Assembly (NCBI GenBank): GCA_036381035.1
Contig: DASVDQ010000047.1
Span: forward strand, 1-64,000
DNA length: 64,000 nt
Reading direction: 5' to 3'
From: Trueperaceae bacterium
Lineage (GTDB): Bacteria > Deinococcota > Deinococci > Deinococcales > Trueperaceae
Positions 27,580 through 33,794 of this stretch are shown here, in pieces. The stretch's first letter is position 1. Each line of letters starts with the position of its first letter. Under the pieces are notes generated by a model. It did no database searches and had not been told where the DNA came from. It saw only the letters and a program-made list of their open reading frames with translations. Both the position numbers and the translations under genes were made by a program.

Positions 27580-30564
27580 TCACTGGACCCTGAACCGGCT
27601 CTCGGCGTAGTGCTCGCCGTCGCCGAGGAGGACCACGTCGTAAGCACCGGGGGCCGCGGGGGCCGTCACCTCGGCGCGGAAGACGTAGGGGTCGTCGGTG
27701 GCGGCAAGCGGGAGCGTCACGCCGTCCACCACGATCGATGCAGCACCCACGAGCTTGAGGAAGCTGGCCTCCGCGACGAGCGGCTCGCCGGGGCCCGTGG
27801 TGGCCGGCGAGATCCTGAGCGTGGCGAGCGGGCCGTCCGCGACCACGAGCGGCAACACCTGCTCGCGGACCGTCTCGGCGGCGGACGCCCTGACGGTGAC
27901 CAGAAGCACACCGCGTGCGTCCGGTGGGACGGGCACGCGCACCTCGTAGACGCCGTCGCCCACCGGCGCCATGGCCATCGCCTCTCCGCCGGGAAGTGCG
28001 GCCTCCACGTAGACCGCGGCGGGATCGAAGTCGCCCCGCAGCTCGGCGGTGACGAGCACGTCCGCGCCCGGCGGGGCGGTCATCGGGCCGAGCCGCGCTA
28101 GGAGCGCCAGGTCGGAGCTCGAGAACGCTCGCACGGTCTCGCGCGGACGAGCGGCGACGCCCAGCTCGAGCCTGGTGATCGGCCCCGCGGCCAGCTCGAG
28201 GCTCTGGGCGGGCGTCGTCGCCACCACCGACTCCGGCAGCGACGCCTCGTCGACGTACACGGTGTAGGTGCCCGGTGCCGCGTTCTGCAGGACGGCCTCG
28301 CCACGCTCGTTCGTCGTGACGGTCCGCGTGGCGCCGGAGCTTCCGCGGAACGTGACGGCCACGCCCGGCACGGCCTGCTCCGTCGAGGCGCGGAGCCCGT
28401 CGCGGTCGTCGTCCGAGAACACCGTGACCACGGCGGTGGCCACCTCGACGACGGGGACGTCGACCTCGGTGACAGAGCCCTCCGTGACCGCCACCCGCAG
28501 GACGCGCTCGATGCCGAGCGTGGCCGGCAGCCCGCTGAGACCGATCGTGTACGAGCCCTCGGCGAGGGCGAGGCTGTAACTGCCGCTCTCGTCCGTGCTG
28601 GTGCTCGTCCGGCCGGCGTGCACCATGGCGGCGACCGGGGGCTCGCCGGGGCCCCTGGTGCCGTCCCTGTCGAGGTCGCGGAACACCGCGCCCTTCACGG
28701 TGCCGGTACGGAGACCGCCGAACGCCTCCACGACCGGCTCCGGTGTAGCGAAGCCGCCGTCCACGATGGCCGTGAGCGCCAGCTCCCAGGTGAGCTCATC
28801 GCCCAGCTCCAGCCCCCCACGCAGGACGTACCGCCTCTCCGGCTGGTAGGAGAGCGACAGGCTGCCGGAGTGCCGGCCGGTCCTGAGGTCGTAGCGGTAC
28901 CGCGCGCGGCCGCTGAAACCGGCACCGTGCCCGCTGAGCGTGGCGTCGAGCCGGTCCTCGTCCTCGTCGTGGAGGTAGCCCACGCCCGCCGACCAGTCGC
29001 GGTCCTCGTAGCTCAGCCCCGCCCGGTAGGTGACCGTGGTCAGCGTGTCGCCCACGACGGAAGCCTCGACGCTGAAGGGGCTGGGCCGGTAGGCCGCGGC
29101 GAGCTGATAGGTCAGCCCCACGTCGCCGCCCCGGAAGGTGGCGCCGAGGTACCCGTCGAGGGCGACGGGCTCGGCGAGGGGGCGGTAGCCTACGCCGAAC
29201 GAGACGGACGCCGAGTCGCTGTAGGACAGCCTCTGCCTCAGCGTCACCTCCGGGTGGACCTTCTCGTTCACGGTGACGTTGGCGATAAGCCCGTCCGGGC
29301 TCGCGGCCAGGTCGGTGCGGCCGCCGATCGGCTCAGTCGTCCGCGTCACGACCGCCGCGTTGGCCCGCCAGCCCCGGTCGAGAGGGTAGGGCACCTCTAG
29401 GCGCGCGAAGCCCAGGAGGGGCGAGGTGTCGAAGGTCGCCGTGAGCCCGAAGGCCGCCGAGAGGTCGACGTCAGCGCCGGCGGCGGACCTCAGCCCGCTG
29501 ACCAGCGGCATCAGCACCAGCTCAGGGGAGACGCGGAAGCGGTAGCCGGCGTCCACCCGCTGCTCGGAGCGGTCGCTGAAGGTCTGGGTGGCGGCGAAGT
29601 AGGCGTCGCCCGGCTGGAATACGGCGCCGAGCGTCGTCGACGACTCGGTCACGCCCGCGAACCCGCTCAGGTCTCCGGCCGTCACCGACAAGGTGTGGTT
29701 CAGGTGGCCTCCGGCGTACACCGCCCGCCAGTCGTCGCCGGCGAGGACCGCGCCGCCCGACACCCGCAAGCCCTGCTCGGGCCGCATCTCCGCCGACAGG
29801 TCCACACCTCCCGACACGTAGCCGGAGAGGTCGCCGCCCAGGAGCACGCGGAGGCCGGCCAGGTAGCCGGCGCTGCCGTAGCCCCCCGTCAGCTCGATGC
29901 CGTAGTCCATCACCGGTCCGGTGACCTCGTCGGCTCCCGCGAACGGCAGGACCTCCGTGCGGACGACCGCGAACCTCTCCTGGGACGGGTCGCTCGCCGG
30001 CGTCGCGGTCACGACGGCGACGTCCCTGCCGACGGTGTCCGCGGGCCAGGCACCCAGAGACACCGAGCGCGCCTCTCCCGGCTCCAGCTCGACGACGAGG
30101 TCGAGGTCGGAGTCCAGGAGCCGGCTCTGCACCGAGACCTTCACCTCCTCGGTCCCGTTGCCCGTGTTCTCGAGCACGATGCGATGCTCGACGACCTCGC
30201 CGCGGACGACGGTGGCGTCCTGCGGGGCGACCAGCACCAGACCCGTGCGCCTGGCGACGGTCACGACGACCTCGGTCGAGCGTCCCTCGCCGTCGGTGAG
30301 CGTGACGACGTGGTCGCCGGCCACGACCGACCTACCGACGTGCAGGTAGAAGACGGTCCGCTCCGCGGCCACCGTCACGCGCTGCGGCCCGGAGAAGCCG
30401 GGCGGCGCCGCGACGACGAGCTCGGTCGGCGCGGCCGCGCTGACGGCGATGGCGGCGAAGGTCCCGGGGTCGACCACCCCTGGCCCCACCGCGCTCACCT
30501 GTGCCGCGGCGACGCCCATCGCACACGCGGCAGCTAGGACGATCGCCCCCCGTAGCATGGGCAT
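27580..30564 (-). CDS. Usher-like outer-membrane beta-barrel protein with SdrD/Ig-like domains
   Basis: A 994-residue exported protein, the last gene of the fibre cluster. It has a signal peptide (MLRGAIVLAAACAMGVAAAQ) and two N-terminal beta-sandwich regions (about 25-205). From about 215 to 650 it has many alternating-polarity strands ending in aromatic residues (YAGGHLNHTLSVTAGDLSGF, AYFAATQTFSDRSEQRVDAG), as in a transmembrane barrel. Two SdrD/prealbumin-like domains follow (GAVFRDLDRDGTRGPGEPPV near 655; FSDDDRDGLRASTEQAVPGV near 750), then further Ig-like strands. Length and order suggest a fimbrial-usher analogue that secretes the subunits encoded upstream. Classical FimD plug and NTD motifs are not obvious, so the family link is inferred. 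Its ATG follows the previous stop directly. Confidence 0.6.
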   Translation of the reverse strand: MPMLRGAIVLAAACAMGVAAAQVSAVGPGVVDPGTFAAIAVSAAAPTELVVAAPPGFSGPQRVTVAAERTVFYLHVGRSVVAGDHVVTLTDGEGRSTEVVVTVARRTGLVLVAPQDATVVRGEVVEHRIVLENTGNGTEEVKVSVQSRLLDSDLDLVVELEPGEARSVSLGAWPADTVGRDVAVVTATPASDPSQERFAVVRTEVLPFAGADEVTGPVMDYGIELTGGYGSAGYLAGLRVLLGGDLSGYVSGGVDLSAEMRPEQGLRVSGGAVLAGDDWRAVYAGGHLNHTLSVTAGDLSGFAGVTESSTTLGAVFQPGDAYFAATQTFSDRSEQRVDAGYRFRVSPELVLMPLVSGLRSAAGADVDLSAAFGLTATFDTSPLLGFARLEVPYPLDRGWRANAAVVTRTTEPIGGRTDLAASPDGLIANVTVNEKVHPEVTLRQRLSYSDSASVSFGVGYRPLAEPVALDGYLGATFRGGDVGLTYQLAAAYRPSPFSVEASVVGDTLTTVTYRAGLSYEDRDWSAGVGYLHDEDEDRLDATLSGHGAGFSGRARYRYDLRTGRHSGSLSLSYQPERRYVLRGGLELGDELTWELALTAIVDGGFATPEPVVEAFGGLRTGTVKGAVFRDLDRDGTRGPGEPPVAAMVHAGRTSTSTDESGSYSLALAEGSYTIGLSGLPATLGIERVLRVAVTEGSVTEVDVPVVEVATAVVTVFSDDDRDGLRASTEQAVPGVAVTFRGSSGATRTVTTNERGEAVLQNAAPGTYTVYVDEASLPESVVATTPAQSLELAAGPITRLELGVAARPRETVRAFSSSDLALLARLGPMTAPPGADVLVTAELRGDFDPAAVYVEAALPGGEAMAMAPVGDGVYEVRVPVPPDARGVLLVTVRASAAETVREQVLPLVVADGPLATLRISPATTGPGEPLVAEASFLKLVGAASIVVDGVTLPLAATDDPYVFRAEVTAPAAPGAYDVVLLGDGEHYAESRFRVQ

Positions 30565-31098
30565 TCAGTCGGAGTTCAGGCTGAACGTGAGGCTCCCGAC
30601 GTACCTGCCGGGCGGCTCGGTGCCGTCGATCCGGAGCCGGACTGCGAACCGGTACGTCTCCTGCACCGCCGTCGGTCCGCGCCCCACCACGATCCTGTTG
30701 CTGCCGGGCGCGAAGGCGTGCCACGTCACGCCGTCCAGGCTGTACTCGAGCTGGTCCGCGGGCAGGATCACGTTCTCCTGCTCGTTGTAGAGGCCGCTGA
30801 AGGTGACGACGATCGTCCAGCCGCTCACGTTCGTGAAGACCGTGAACGACATCGGGTCGGTCGCCGGGTCGGGGTCGGTCGGCAGGTAGTAGGCGGGGAA
30901 CCGTGCCGGCGGGTAGACGGCCTGGCTCAGGTCGAAGACGACCTGGTCGTGGCTGATCGTCAGCGAGGCCGCCTCGGGGATCGTGGCTCCCACGGAGACC
31001 TGCGCCGACGCCGTGGACGCCGCCACGACCAGGGCGAGCGAGGCCAGGGCGCGGCGGACGGTGCGGGTAGCGGGTCGGTCGAGTGCGGGCCAGTTCAT
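30565..31098 (-). CDS. Secreted Ig-fold subunit-like protein (putative minor fibre subunit)
   Basis: A 177-residue exported protein with a signal peptide ending ...AASTASAQ. The mature part opens with VSVGATIPEAASLTISHDQV and closes with the beta-strand RYVGSLTFSLNSD, like the last strand of pilin or WxL-type beta-sandwich domains. There are no cysteines in the mature part. The start overlaps the chaperone-like gene by four bases (ATGA), and the stop abuts the usher-like gene. This tight coupling suggests a tip or minor subunit made in step with chaperone and usher. I do not recognise a named family. Confidence 0.55.
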   Translation of the reverse strand: MNWPALDRPATRTVRRALASLALVVAASTASAQVSVGATIPEAASLTISHDQVVFDLSQAVYPPARFPAYYLPTDPDPATDPMSFTVFTNVSGWTIVVTFSGLYNEQENVILPADQLEYSLDGVTWHAFAPGSNRIVVGRGPTAVQETYRFAVRLRIDGTEPPGRYVGSLTFSLNSD

Positions 31099-31916
31099 GG
31101 CACCTCCACGAGCGCTTCGCCGAGCAGGACCGTGCCGCCGCCGTAGTCGAGGTCGGCCAGCAGCGTGTACGAGCCCGTCGGCAGCGGTGCCGACAGGGGG
31201 AACACGACGTCGTGCGTCGCGCCGGGGAAGGAGGCCTCGTCCGCGACGCTGACCCTCTCGACGAGACCGCCGGTCGCGTCGCGCACCTCGACGGATCCCG
31301 TGATGCGCAGCAGCCCGGTGCCGGTGTTGCTGAACTGCACCCGCACCGCGGGCGGTGCGTCGACCCCCGGCTCGTACCTGAGGCCGACGATGCTGCCTTC
31401 TCGCGTCGGCTCGCCGACGTCCACGTAGATGAAGTGTCCGACGCGGACCCGGGTCACGACCCCTATGCCGGCCCCCGGCTCCTGCTCGGAGCCGCTGGCC
31501 GCGGAGTCGAAGAACAGGACGGTCCAGTACGTCCCGTCGGGGGCGTCCTCCGGCACCGTGACCGTGTAGCTGACCGCGAGGTCCGCCGCCGGGCCCAGCG
31601 TGAACTCGAGCGGGTTCACGCTGAGCCAAGGCGCCAAAGACCTGGGATGGCTGCCCGGGTCCAGCCAGATGAGCTGGCCGCTCGGGCCCATGAGGGCGTC
31701 GTTGAGGACGACGGAGACGCCGAGCGGCGTGCCGGGGCTGGGGTTGTCGACGTTTACGACGCTCGTGACCTGAGACCCCGGGGCGGCGACGAGCTGGGCC
31801 CGGGGTGGGCTCACGCCCACGCCGGACTGGGCGTCCGCGCACGTGAGGCTCCAAGCGAGGACGGAGCAAGCGACGAACATCGAGACGGACCTGATGAAGA
31901 TAGTCGGACTCCTCAT
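31095..31916 (-). CDS. PapD-like periplasmic chaperone (divergent)
   Basis: A 273-residue exported protein with a signal peptide and two predicted beta-sandwich domains. The mature start GVGVSPPRAQLVAAPGSQVT with VNVDNPSPGTPLGV, then WLSVNPLEFTLGPAADLAVSY, follows the fimbrial-chaperone/DUF916-like pattern. In these families the first domain donates a strand to a subunit. PEDAPDGTYWTVLFFDS closes domain 1, and VRVQFSNTGTGLLRITGSVE lies in domain 2. The usual conserved Arg/Lys anchor pair of PapD is not evident, so function is inferred from fold and neighbours. ATG 31916 is used; an internal ATG 12 codons later could also give a signal peptide. Confidence 0.6.
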   Translation of the reverse strand: MRSPTIFIRSVSMFVACSVLAWSLTCADAQSGVGVSPPRAQLVAAPGSQVTSVVNVDNPSPGTPLGVSVVLNDALMGPSGQLIWLDPGSHPRSLAPWLSVNPLEFTLGPAADLAVSYTVTVPEDAPDGTYWTVLFFDSAASGSEQEPGAGIGVVTRVRVGHFIYVDVGEPTREGSIVGLRYEPGVDAPPAVRVQFSNTGTGLLRITGSVEVRDATGGLVERVSVADEASFPGATHDVVFPLSAPLPTGSYTLLADLDYGGGTVLLGEALVEVP

Positions 31917-31997
31917 GGCCTCACTCTGGCTCGGCCGCGAGCTCGGCAGGCGGGCCGGTCGCGCGGCTGACGGTCGGAACGACGGTCGCGGTGAAGC

Positions 31998-32032
31998 GGC
32001 CCGCCGCCGAGGTCCTGCCTCGGCGGCGGGCC
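31998..32032 (-). terminator. Strong intra-operon hairpin after the putative major subunit gene
   Basis: A 15-bp perfect stem (GGCCCGCCGCCGAGG with its complement) and a TCCTG loop begin 8 bp after the subunit stop codon and 82 bp before the chaperone start. No T-tract follows, so it may be a processing or stabilising element rather than a full terminator. Confidence 0.7.
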
Positions 32033-32039
32033 CTAGCGG

Positions 32040-32729
32040 TCAGGGCTTGCTGGTGAGGACGAACGTGACGGTGATGGTCTTGTCGCCCGGCGTCTCGGTG
32101 CCGTCGAACCAGAACAGCTCCTCGATCTTGTCGTCGAGCCAGCCGCCGGTGGGCGAGCCGCTGTGGGCGAGGATGAGCCCGTCGGCGCTGGCGCCGATGA
32201 GGTGCCTGTAGTTCGACTCGGCGCTACCGTCGGGGACGCCGCCCTTGAGGGCGTCGTCACGGATGCCGAACTTGCCCGAGCCTTCCGTCATGTCGACGTC
32301 GGCGGTGAGCTCCCAGCCGGTGTTGGCGAACTTCTGGACGACGAACTCGGTCCTGCAGACGAGCGTGCCCTTCTGGTAGGTGCCATCGACCTCGGCGACG
32401 TTGCCGTTCTGGTCCAGGACCACGGCGGGGTAGATCGACACGACCTGGCCGCCGAGCGCGTATCTCCTGAGGGAGTTGTAGTCGCTCGGCATGACGCCCT
32501 TCGGCACCATGCGGCAGCCGGCGCCTACTCCTTCTAGGTGGTTGAGGTCGAGCGCGAAGTCCGTGTCCGTGATGTGCAGGGCGACACGGGTGGGGATCGT
32601 CAGCTCGATTTGCTGGCGTACACGGGTGCGGTCGCCGCCCTCGCTGTTGTAGTTGAAGTCCGGCTGCGCCGCAGCGGTCGCGGCGAGCGCGGCGAAGGCG
32701 AGGACAACAAGAAGCTTCCTGATGAACAT
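32040..32729 (-). CDS. Secreted beta-rich protein, putative major fibre subunit
   Basis: A 229-residue exported protein with a signal peptide (MFIRKLLVVLAFAALAATAA). The mature part has a QIELTIPTRVALHITDTDFALD segment near its start, two cysteines (CRMVPKG and VCRTEF) that could form a disulfide, and a final strand TITVTFVLTSKP. The last strand resembles that of the 30565 protein (SLTFSLNSD). Upstream CGGAGGCCAGC is a strong ribosome-binding site. The 15-bp hairpin directly after its stop suggests higher expression than the chaperone and usher genes behind it, as expected for a main structural subunit. Family unknown. Confidence 0.55.
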   Translation of the reverse strand: MFIRKLLVVLAFAALAATAAAQPDFNYNSEGGDRTRVRQQIELTIPTRVALHITDTDFALDLNHLEGVGAGCRMVPKGVMPSDYNSLRRYALGGQVVSIYPAVVLDQNGNVAEVDGTYQKGTLVCRTEFVVQKFANTGWELTADVDMTEGSGKFGIRDDALKGGVPDGSAESNYRHLIGASADGLILAHSGSPTGGWLDDKIEELFWFDGTETPGDKTITVTFVLTSKP

Positions 32730-33290
32730 GCTGGCCTCCGAAGCGTGAGATCGCTCAACCCGCTTGGGGCGGGCCCCTCGTCTTGCGTGCATCCCTCTGT
32801 GTCGTTGGACCTCCCGGCCTCCAGGACCGCGGTGAGCCGACGGGGCCGCGCGTCCGGGGCGGCTACGCGGTCGCTCGACAGGCAACGTGGTCGCTCTAGC
32901 TCACTGCTGCGCCGGAACGTCCGCTCGGACTGCGCCTTGGCCGAAGGGGTTCGACGACACGACCCGACTTCCACTCCCCCCTTCTCACGAAGTTTTCATC
33001 CGGAGCTTATGTGGGGGCAGCGGCTTCGGCTGTGACGGTTGACGACCCCGGGCGCCGCTGGTTCGCTAGTCGCGCTGGGGCGCAGGTTCTCGGCGCCAGC
33101 CCCGCCGAGCGGGCTCGAGGACTGGTCGCGGCGGAGTCGCTCAGGAACGGCTGACCCGGTTGCATGGGCCCCGAGTCACGGGGCCGCGCTCTCAGGCCAG
33201 TTGGTACGCTCCTACAGGCACTATCCCTCTAGCCCGATCATGACGGAGCGGATCGGGAAGGGCACCTGGGCCCTGGGGCCGGAGTCAGCG
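32730..33290. other. 561-bp intergenic region inside the fibre cluster
   Basis: No credible gene is visible. It contains a GGCCCC-GAGTCAC-GGGGCC hairpin (33165-33183), the motif CCTACAGGCACTATCCC (33211-33227; 16 of 17 bases shared with 27405-27421), and a CCCGATC/GATCGGG inverted repeat (33231-33255). The last two lie next to each other. The region should hold the promoter of the putative major subunit gene (start 32729) and the end of the 33291 transcript. I could not find a convincing -35/-10 pair. Confidence 0.4.
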
Positions 33291-33794
33291 CTACCGAAGG
33301 CACGTCTTGCCGAAGCCCGCGGCCAGAGCCAGGATCACATCGTGGTCGATGGTGAAGTCTGCGGTGCCGTTGCTGCCGTCGAACCTCACTCGGATCTCCG
33401 TGGGTGACGAGAGTACCGCGAAGATGAGGTCCTGGTCCTGGATGAGGGCGACCTCGTAAGTGTCTTCTACTCCCGTGGAGACCGGGGTGAACTGGAAGAC
33501 CTCGTCAGTGCTCGGGAACCGGACGAAGACGCGGTCGTCAGGCATCACGATGAACATGTTGAACACCGAGTCGGCGATGCTGTCGAGATGCCGGGTGAAG
33601 GCGATCACCGGTTCGCTGTACTCACTGCCGGCGAAGAGGCTGATGCCTGACCTGTCGTACGTGGAGTTGATCACCAGGTGGGAGCACGACGTCTCACGGG
33701 TGAACTCGTCGACCTCCTGTTGAAGGCCGAAGTCGTGCTCCGCGAGGGCGCATGAAGCGAGGGCAGCTACGAGGCACAGGAACGGCTTTCTCAT
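33291..33794 (-). CDS. Small secreted protein at the head of the fibre cluster
   Basis: A 167-residue exported protein with a signal peptide (MRKPFLCLVAALASCALAEH). The mature part is beta-rich, with cysteines at SCSHLV and at the very end KTCLR. There are repeated short strands such as VFNMFIVMPDDRVFVRFPST and TEIRVRFDGSNGTADFTIDH. It may be an adhesin, an additional subunit or an unrelated envelope protein; I do not recognise it. The leader contains an inverted repeat CTGGTCGG / CCGACCAG (33806-33842), and GGGGGG precedes the start. A 561-bp gap separates it from the subunit gene, so it may have its own promoter. Confidence 0.5.
   Translation of the reverse strand: MRKPFLCLVAALASCALAEHDFGLQQEVDEFTRETSCSHLVINSTYDRSGISLFAGSEYSEPVIAFTRHLDSIADSVFNMFIVMPDDRVFVRFPSTDEVFQFTPVSTGVEDTYEVALIQDQDLIFAVLSSPTEIRVRFDGSNGTADFTIDHDVILALAAGFGKTCLR

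Follow-up and report, generated by a model that had tools for sequence, protein, structure and literature searches.

A module of four minus-strand genes probably encodes a system that resembles chaperone-usher pathways and would secrete and assemble surface fibres. The module lies in the window, a 64,000-nt stretch of contig C47 in the 3.4-Mb draft genome of a Trueperaceae bacterium (phylum Deinococcota), and is most likely a variant of chaperone-usher assembly that is so far without a name. The assignment is directly supported by the gene order, the predicted barrel of P0001, the chaperone kinship of P0003, and two features of P0004, namely a free, conserved amphipathic strand near its N-terminus and a last strand at its very C-terminus. 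In order of transcription, the four genes are:

P0004, 32040-32729, minus strand, 229 aa: putative fibre subunit, probably the major subunit.
P0003, 31095-31916, minus strand, 273 aa: putative periplasmic chaperone with two Ig-like domains, a PapD-like N-domain, DUF916/WxLIP-related.
P0002, 30565-31098, minus strand, 177 aa: putative second subunit, ending in SLTFSLNSD.
P0001, 27580-30564, minus strand, 994 aa: usher-like outer-membrane protein.

An original prediction, made from the window alone, had described five consecutive minus-strand genes, the fifth being the upstream gene P0005 (see below), and all five open reading frames (ORFs) were found as described. P0003 and P0002 share 4 bases (31095-31098) and P0001 follows P0002 without a gap, so that the last three genes are as tightly packed as had been reported; P0004 and P0003 are separated by 123 bases. 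A hydrophobic leader followed by an A-x-A-type cleavage site was recognized in each of the five proteins, as predicted (by-eye reading of the leaders, without a predictor). Pfam and NCBIfam scans of the five proteins returned significant matches solely to SdrD_B/CarboxypepD_reg-type domains in P0001, and scans for sigma-70 promoters and terminators gave no match. Omp85 is encoded in this genome, and the cell should therefore have an outer membrane.

The synteny survey that had been suggested was carried out in 111 Deinococcota genomes and revealed a conserved module order across the phylum. Relatives of P0003, P0001, and P0004 were found in 55, 41, and 32 of these genomes, respectively. Among the 49 best P0003 loci, a P0001-like gene lies downstream, on the same strand and within 6 kb, in 37, and a P0004-like gene lies upstream in 36; conversely, a P0003-like gene adjoins 36 of the 38 P0004-like places listed. 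The order P0004-P0003-P0002-P0001 is repeated across families of the phylum at protein identities of about 25-50%, and the recurrent pattern is far beyond chance. Several of the exceptions are rearranged loci in which the barrel gene is reversed (L079, L080, and L081) or loci cut at a contig end. Variants of the module also exist. P0004 is duplicated in tandem in one of two operon types of several Thermus-like genomes (family f5), an operon type that is also headed by an extra secreted protein of about 266 aa, and plasmid 2 of D. deserti carries a three-gene form consisting of a subunit, a chaperone, and an 839-aa barrel candidate. All four genes also occur on plasmids of Deinococcus sp. D7000 and D. 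psychrotolerans, each annotated as ‘hypothetical protein’.

A single Gemmatimonadota locus found in a contig scan prompted a wider survey of that phylum, in which the P0003 chaperone profile matched 62 of 200 genomes. Of the 17 loci examined, at least 14 have a slimmer form of the module, made up of subunit, chaperone, and barrel, in which the neighbour of the chaperone gene codes for a protein of about 870-1400 aa. The pair is mostly preceded by genes for small secreted proteins with an alternating terminal strand, a feature whose score is a moderate discriminator (53% of subunits compared with 15% of all ORFs).

Structure models of single chains were obtained for P0004 and P0001. The P0004 model (35 sequences, pLDDT 76) shows a beta sandwich in which residues 219-228 form the last strand, one residue short of the C-terminus (229). 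No strand follows it in the model, in agreement with the incomplete Ig-type fold that had been predicted for a subunit. Residues 21-48, after the leader, form an N-terminal extension without secondary structure in the model, and a conserved amphipathic segment (residues 35-45) lies within this unpaired extension. Hydrophobic residues occupy positions 37, 41, 43, and 45 in 97-100% of the 35 sequences, compared with 0-6% for positions 36, 38, 40, and 42, and the alternating segment is directly followed by the invariant P46. Two cysteines, C72 and C125, are also invariant. Being conserved, amphipathic, and unpaired in the modeled single subunit, the segment appears to bear the signature of a donor strand, and its combination with an incomplete sandwich is, as far as the model goes, that of a chaperone-usher subunit. 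The fold matches of P0004 are all weak (E >= 5e-4). Five of them are donor-strand pilins or filaments, namely Pyrobaculum bundling pili (E 6e-4, prob 1.00), Sulfolobus threads (E 0.02), PapE, PapA, and the CFA/I tip, and these are interspersed with jelly-roll proteins that are unrelated. P0002 carries a similar but shorter segment at its N-terminus, and its gene lies between those of the chaperone and the usher-like protein in the four-gene form; as a putative second subunit, P0002 may be located at the tip or the base. A PDB sequence search with the subunit profiles gave nothing, and neither the SCPU (PF05229) nor the WxL domain was matched in P0002, P0004, the P0004 family, or ten distant subunits.

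The AlphaFold2 model of P0001 (30 family members, pLDDT 87.5, pTM 0.55) contains the transmembrane barrel that had been proposed for the 994-residue protein. Two N-terminal beta-sandwich domains (about residues 24-206) are followed by about 28 consecutive up-and-down barrel strands, as judged from the secondary structure of the model (residues 218-606, 389 residues), by two SdrD_B/TTL-type domains (about 620-805), and by two further beta domains (about 821-993). The SdrD domains, likewise anticipated, were detected by Pfam (PF17210, SdrD_B, E 1.4e-14). The predicted arrangement of a barrel with flanking N- and C-terminal beta domains is the one expected of ushers. In a Foldseek comparison of the model with the PDB, FimD ranked first (9fw9, E 2e-15, TM-score 0.24), with E-values that are inflated for long repetitive beta proteins and with low TM-scores to FimD (0.2-0.3). 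FimD and PapC accounted for 9 of the 20 best matches, unrelated beta-rich giant proteins were also among these 20, and TonB receptors and LptD followed at about 1e-8. A weak match to CooC_C was found in one usher-like relative. PDB sequence searches with P0001 or P0003 alone gave nothing useful. The best-conserved stretch of the P0001 family starts where the barrel ends and extends into the first SdrD_B domain, and this domain may serve as a gate.

The profile of P0003, built from 25 relatives, aligned with the PapD-family chaperones of E. coli K-12 (hhalign prob 92, E 6e-7), residues 30-162 being in register with the PapD-family N-domain as far as the G1 strand. Its alignment with EcpB (hhalign prob 82) extends over both domains. 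EcpB was also the nearest fimbrial chaperone in a PDB profile search with the P0003 family (E 0.45). By sequence, the closest solved relative is EfmWxLIP1, again over both domains (hmmsearch E 7e-6). The earlier description of the two-domain protein as PapD/DUF916-like agrees with the alignments to PapD, EcpB, and WxLIP, but its closest solved sequence relative is a WxLIP rather than PapD. WxLIP was predicted with AlphaFold2 to complete the WxL sandwich via an inserted strand (PMC10599100). Both of the families with which P0003 aligns, PapD-type chaperones and WxLIP, thus consist of strand-donating proteins.

Individual positions of P0003 were compared with those of known chaperones. P102 aligns with the superfamily proline of domain 1 and is a proline in 16 of the 25 relatives. 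K112 of FimC/PapD, the classical G1 anchor, corresponds to G160, Gly or Ala in the family, in an alignment whose register may be off; two residues earlier, R158 is an arginine in 22 of 25. The super-conserved anchor arginine (Arg89 of CsuC/EcpB) is named as the trait that best characterizes the alternative and archaic chaperones (PMC4654587). With the EcpB mature numbering that we infer, its position falls on T132, which is Gly, Ala, Ser, or Thr in the family, the arginine being absent. No Pfam match to PapD_N was found in P0003, and PapD_N (PF00345) was matched in one genome alone of the 111, away from this locus. The genome of that lone match (L173, genome G003, contig C134) gave no match to the PF00577 usher family.

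In the proposed mechanism, P0004 and P0002 would reach the periplasm via Sec as Ig/jelly-roll-like sandwiches that lack the last strand. The G1-like strand of P0003 (about residues 150-167) would cap the gap of each subunit by donor-strand complementation, and the periplasmic domains of P0001 would receive the chaperone-subunit complexes. At P0001, which would catalyze the exchange, the N-terminal strand of the next P0004 would replace the chaperone strand, and the growing subunit chain would exit through the barrel pore. The product would be an adhesive or structural fibre, with a putative role in adhesion or biofilm formation.

Several observations weigh against this interpretation. Comparison of P0001 with the FimD-family usher profile gave an hhalign prob of 9, that is, no sequence homology, so that the suggested HMM-HMM comparison connects P0003 to the PapD family and EcpB but does not connect P0001 to FimD. 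PF00577, the usher family, was matched neither by P0001 (at E <= 1) nor in any of the 111 genomes, in a scan for which the E. coli control was positive. The FimD barrel consists of 24 strands plus a plug. No insertion longer than a short loop is present among the modeled P0001 strands of residues 218-606, and a FimD-like plug would therefore be missing. The low TM-scores and inflated Foldseek E-values of P0001, the pLDDT of just 76 of the P0004 model, and its weak and mixed fold matches also count on this side. Moreover, we infer that the chaperone binds the subunits, that strands are exchanged, and that the subunits pass through the barrel, polymerize into fibres, and are secreted. What had been predicted as a chaperone-usher-like system is thus borne out by the barrel, its FimD fold match, the PapD/DUF916-like chaperone, the incomplete subunit, and the synteny, but not by sequence-level membership of known families. 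None of the Pfam models for ushers, PapD, or pilins fits these proteins, consistent with the earlier remark that recognizable FimD, PapD, and SCPU motifs are absent.

The system was not filed as a classical, alternative, or archaic member, nor as a WxL cluster, because the usher family, the plug, and the archaic/alternative arginine were not found. A tentative, and rather doubtful, extension of this view is that it forms a separate class, with an anciently diverged or independently built plugless barrel of about 28 strands, an SdrD-type C-terminal gate, and a chaperone that shares WxLIP stock.

It is unlikely that the module is instead a diderm counterpart of a WxL cluster, in which P0003 would hold small beta proteins at the surface and P0001 would act as an anchor or scaffold, with no polymeric fibre being formed. 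The position of EfmWxLIP1 as closest solved relative over both domains favors this explanation, as do weak matches to WxLIP_PGBD (PF06030) in 10 of the 25 P0003 family members and the DUF916 annotation of Arthrobacter plasmid relatives. However, an NQIDK-type motif and a C-terminal transmembrane helix are both absent from all 25 members, and P0003 is therefore not considered a WxLIP. No WxL domain was found in the subunit-family members scanned, and P0004 has a free donor-like N-terminal strand. Described WxL clusters list small WxL, large WxL, and WxLIP proteins and no barrel (PMC10599100), whereas a barrel is the regular partner here. The plasmid relative was found in Arthrobacter caoxuetaonis (L169), a one-membrane actinobacterium; its DUF916 protein matches P0003 by tblastn (E 6e-6), and the gene has no large barrel gene alongside.

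Direct descent from Csu/SCPU systems, which would make the module an extremely diverged true archaic-type (sigma) chaperone-usher pilus and not a distinct class, appears improbable. The subunit C-termini (G-x-Y, alternating hydrophobics) and the N-terminal strand resemble those of archaic pilins, and the best fold matches of P0001 are FimD and PapC. Archaic systems are also reported from Deinococcus-Thermus (PMC4654587). These similarities stand against the T132 position of P0003 (Gly, Ala, Ser, or Thr in place of the characteristic arginine), the absence of PF00577 from all 111 genomes and of any SCPU match, and a predicted barrel of about 28 strands that, unlike the 24-strand barrel of FimD, has no plug. 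Least credible of all is an unrelated outer-membrane barrel, for lipid, S-layer, or transport functions, with accessory Ig-fold secreted proteins, the likeness to chaperone-usher systems reflecting only shared beta architecture: LptD and TonB-receptor barrels do match P0001 (E about 1e-8) and beta-sandwich matches are promiscuous, but chaperone and barrel genes are regularly paired, P0003 aligns in register with PapD and EcpB, the subunits have conserved a free strand near the N-terminus and a last strand that ends the chain, and no Pfam transport or S-layer domain was matched in P0001 or its relatives.

The unit assigned to the chaperone-usher-like system is thus the four-gene module P0004-P0003-P0002-P0001, and the fifth gene of the original prediction was removed from it:

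P0005, 33291-33794, minus strand, 167 aa: secreted protein without a family match.

P0005 lies upstream, about 560 bases from P0004. It is not conserved, with weak relatives in 1 of 110 other genomes of the phylum and a second copy in its own genome, a paralogue on contig C29. No homologue was found in the related loci examined, and a role as a subunit or regulator was rejected for lack of conservation and of a counterpart in syntenic loci. P0005 represents a family of secreted proteins that is restricted to its lineage and is not related to the fibre module.

Other genes were observed near related loci. In some Thermus-like and related genomes, the first gene of the operon encodes the additional, third secreted protein (about 266 aa; L062:5951-6748, L063:8061-8900, and L064:8060-8878), which is absent from the locus in the window; its C-terminus is similar to that of P0002, and it may be a tip adhesin. 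Flanking proteins of 560-740 aa with similar N-termini occur in Thermus-like and other Deinococcota (L062:4101-5786, L067:2514-4286, and L071:11102-13312). They have by eye the look of SARP/BTAD-type activators; Pfam gave no BTAD match and a weak AAA_16 match in one. In Gemmatimonadota, a gene for a divergent OmpR-type response regulator is repeatedly found upstream of the subunit-chaperone-barrel genes (L150:721-1410 and L154:2761-3537, Pfam-confirmed in these two), and similar ORFs are present in L031, L151, L153, and L156. This arrangement suggests two-component control of the Gemmatimonadota loci.

Searches of the open-access literature on Thermus/Deinococcus and Gemmatimonadota found no system of this kind described, which is weak evidence of novelty because the search covered open-access papers. 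An annotatable FimD-type usher is missing from all 111 genomes of the phylum, yet half of them carry a P0003-type chaperone and over a third carry the barrel. If the chaperone-usher-like assignment is correct, Thermus, Deinococcus, and Gemmatimonadota possess an entire system for pilus assembly that has so far gone unnamed. Thermus and Deinococcus are genetically tractable, and the role of the usher plug and the minimal parts for chaperone-usher export would become testable, as would the relationship of PapD-type chaperones to the WxL-interacting proteins of Gram-positive bacteria. The separate-class possibility would, if true, link the donor-strand chaperoning of one-membrane and two-membrane bacteria.

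The module shares with classical Fim/Pap systems the gene logic of subunit, chaperone, and barrel, a two-domain Ig chaperone, a barrel with periplasmic beta domains, subunits that end on their last strand and carry an N-terminal donor-like segment, and FimD as the best PDB fold match. It differs from them in that P0001 lacks usher sequence homology, has about 28 predicted strands and no inserted plug, and carries SdrD_B-type C-terminal domains, whereas in the P0003 family Gly or Ala occupies the FimC K112 position and the conserved R158 lies two residues earlier. Similarity to alternative systems (CS1/Ecp) is seen in the alignment of P0003 with EcpB over both domains, the superfamily proline at P102, and the weak CooC_C match of one relative, but the diagnostic arginine of alternative and archaic (Csu/SCPU) systems is absent, as are Pfam usher, SCPU, and PapD_N matches. 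Like WxL-WxLIP (DUF916-DUF3324) systems, the module has a protein, P0003, that is homologous to EfmWxLIP1 over both domains, WxLIP being a predicted strand inserter (PMC10599100); unlike them, it has no NQIDK motif, C-terminal membrane helix, or WxL domain, and includes an outer-membrane barrel partner. Finally, the P0004 model matches Pyrobaculum and Sulfolobus members of the usher-free donor-strand filaments (TasA/TapA, archaeal bundling pili, and threads), from which the module is distinguished by a dedicated chaperone and an outer-membrane barrel encoded beside the subunits.

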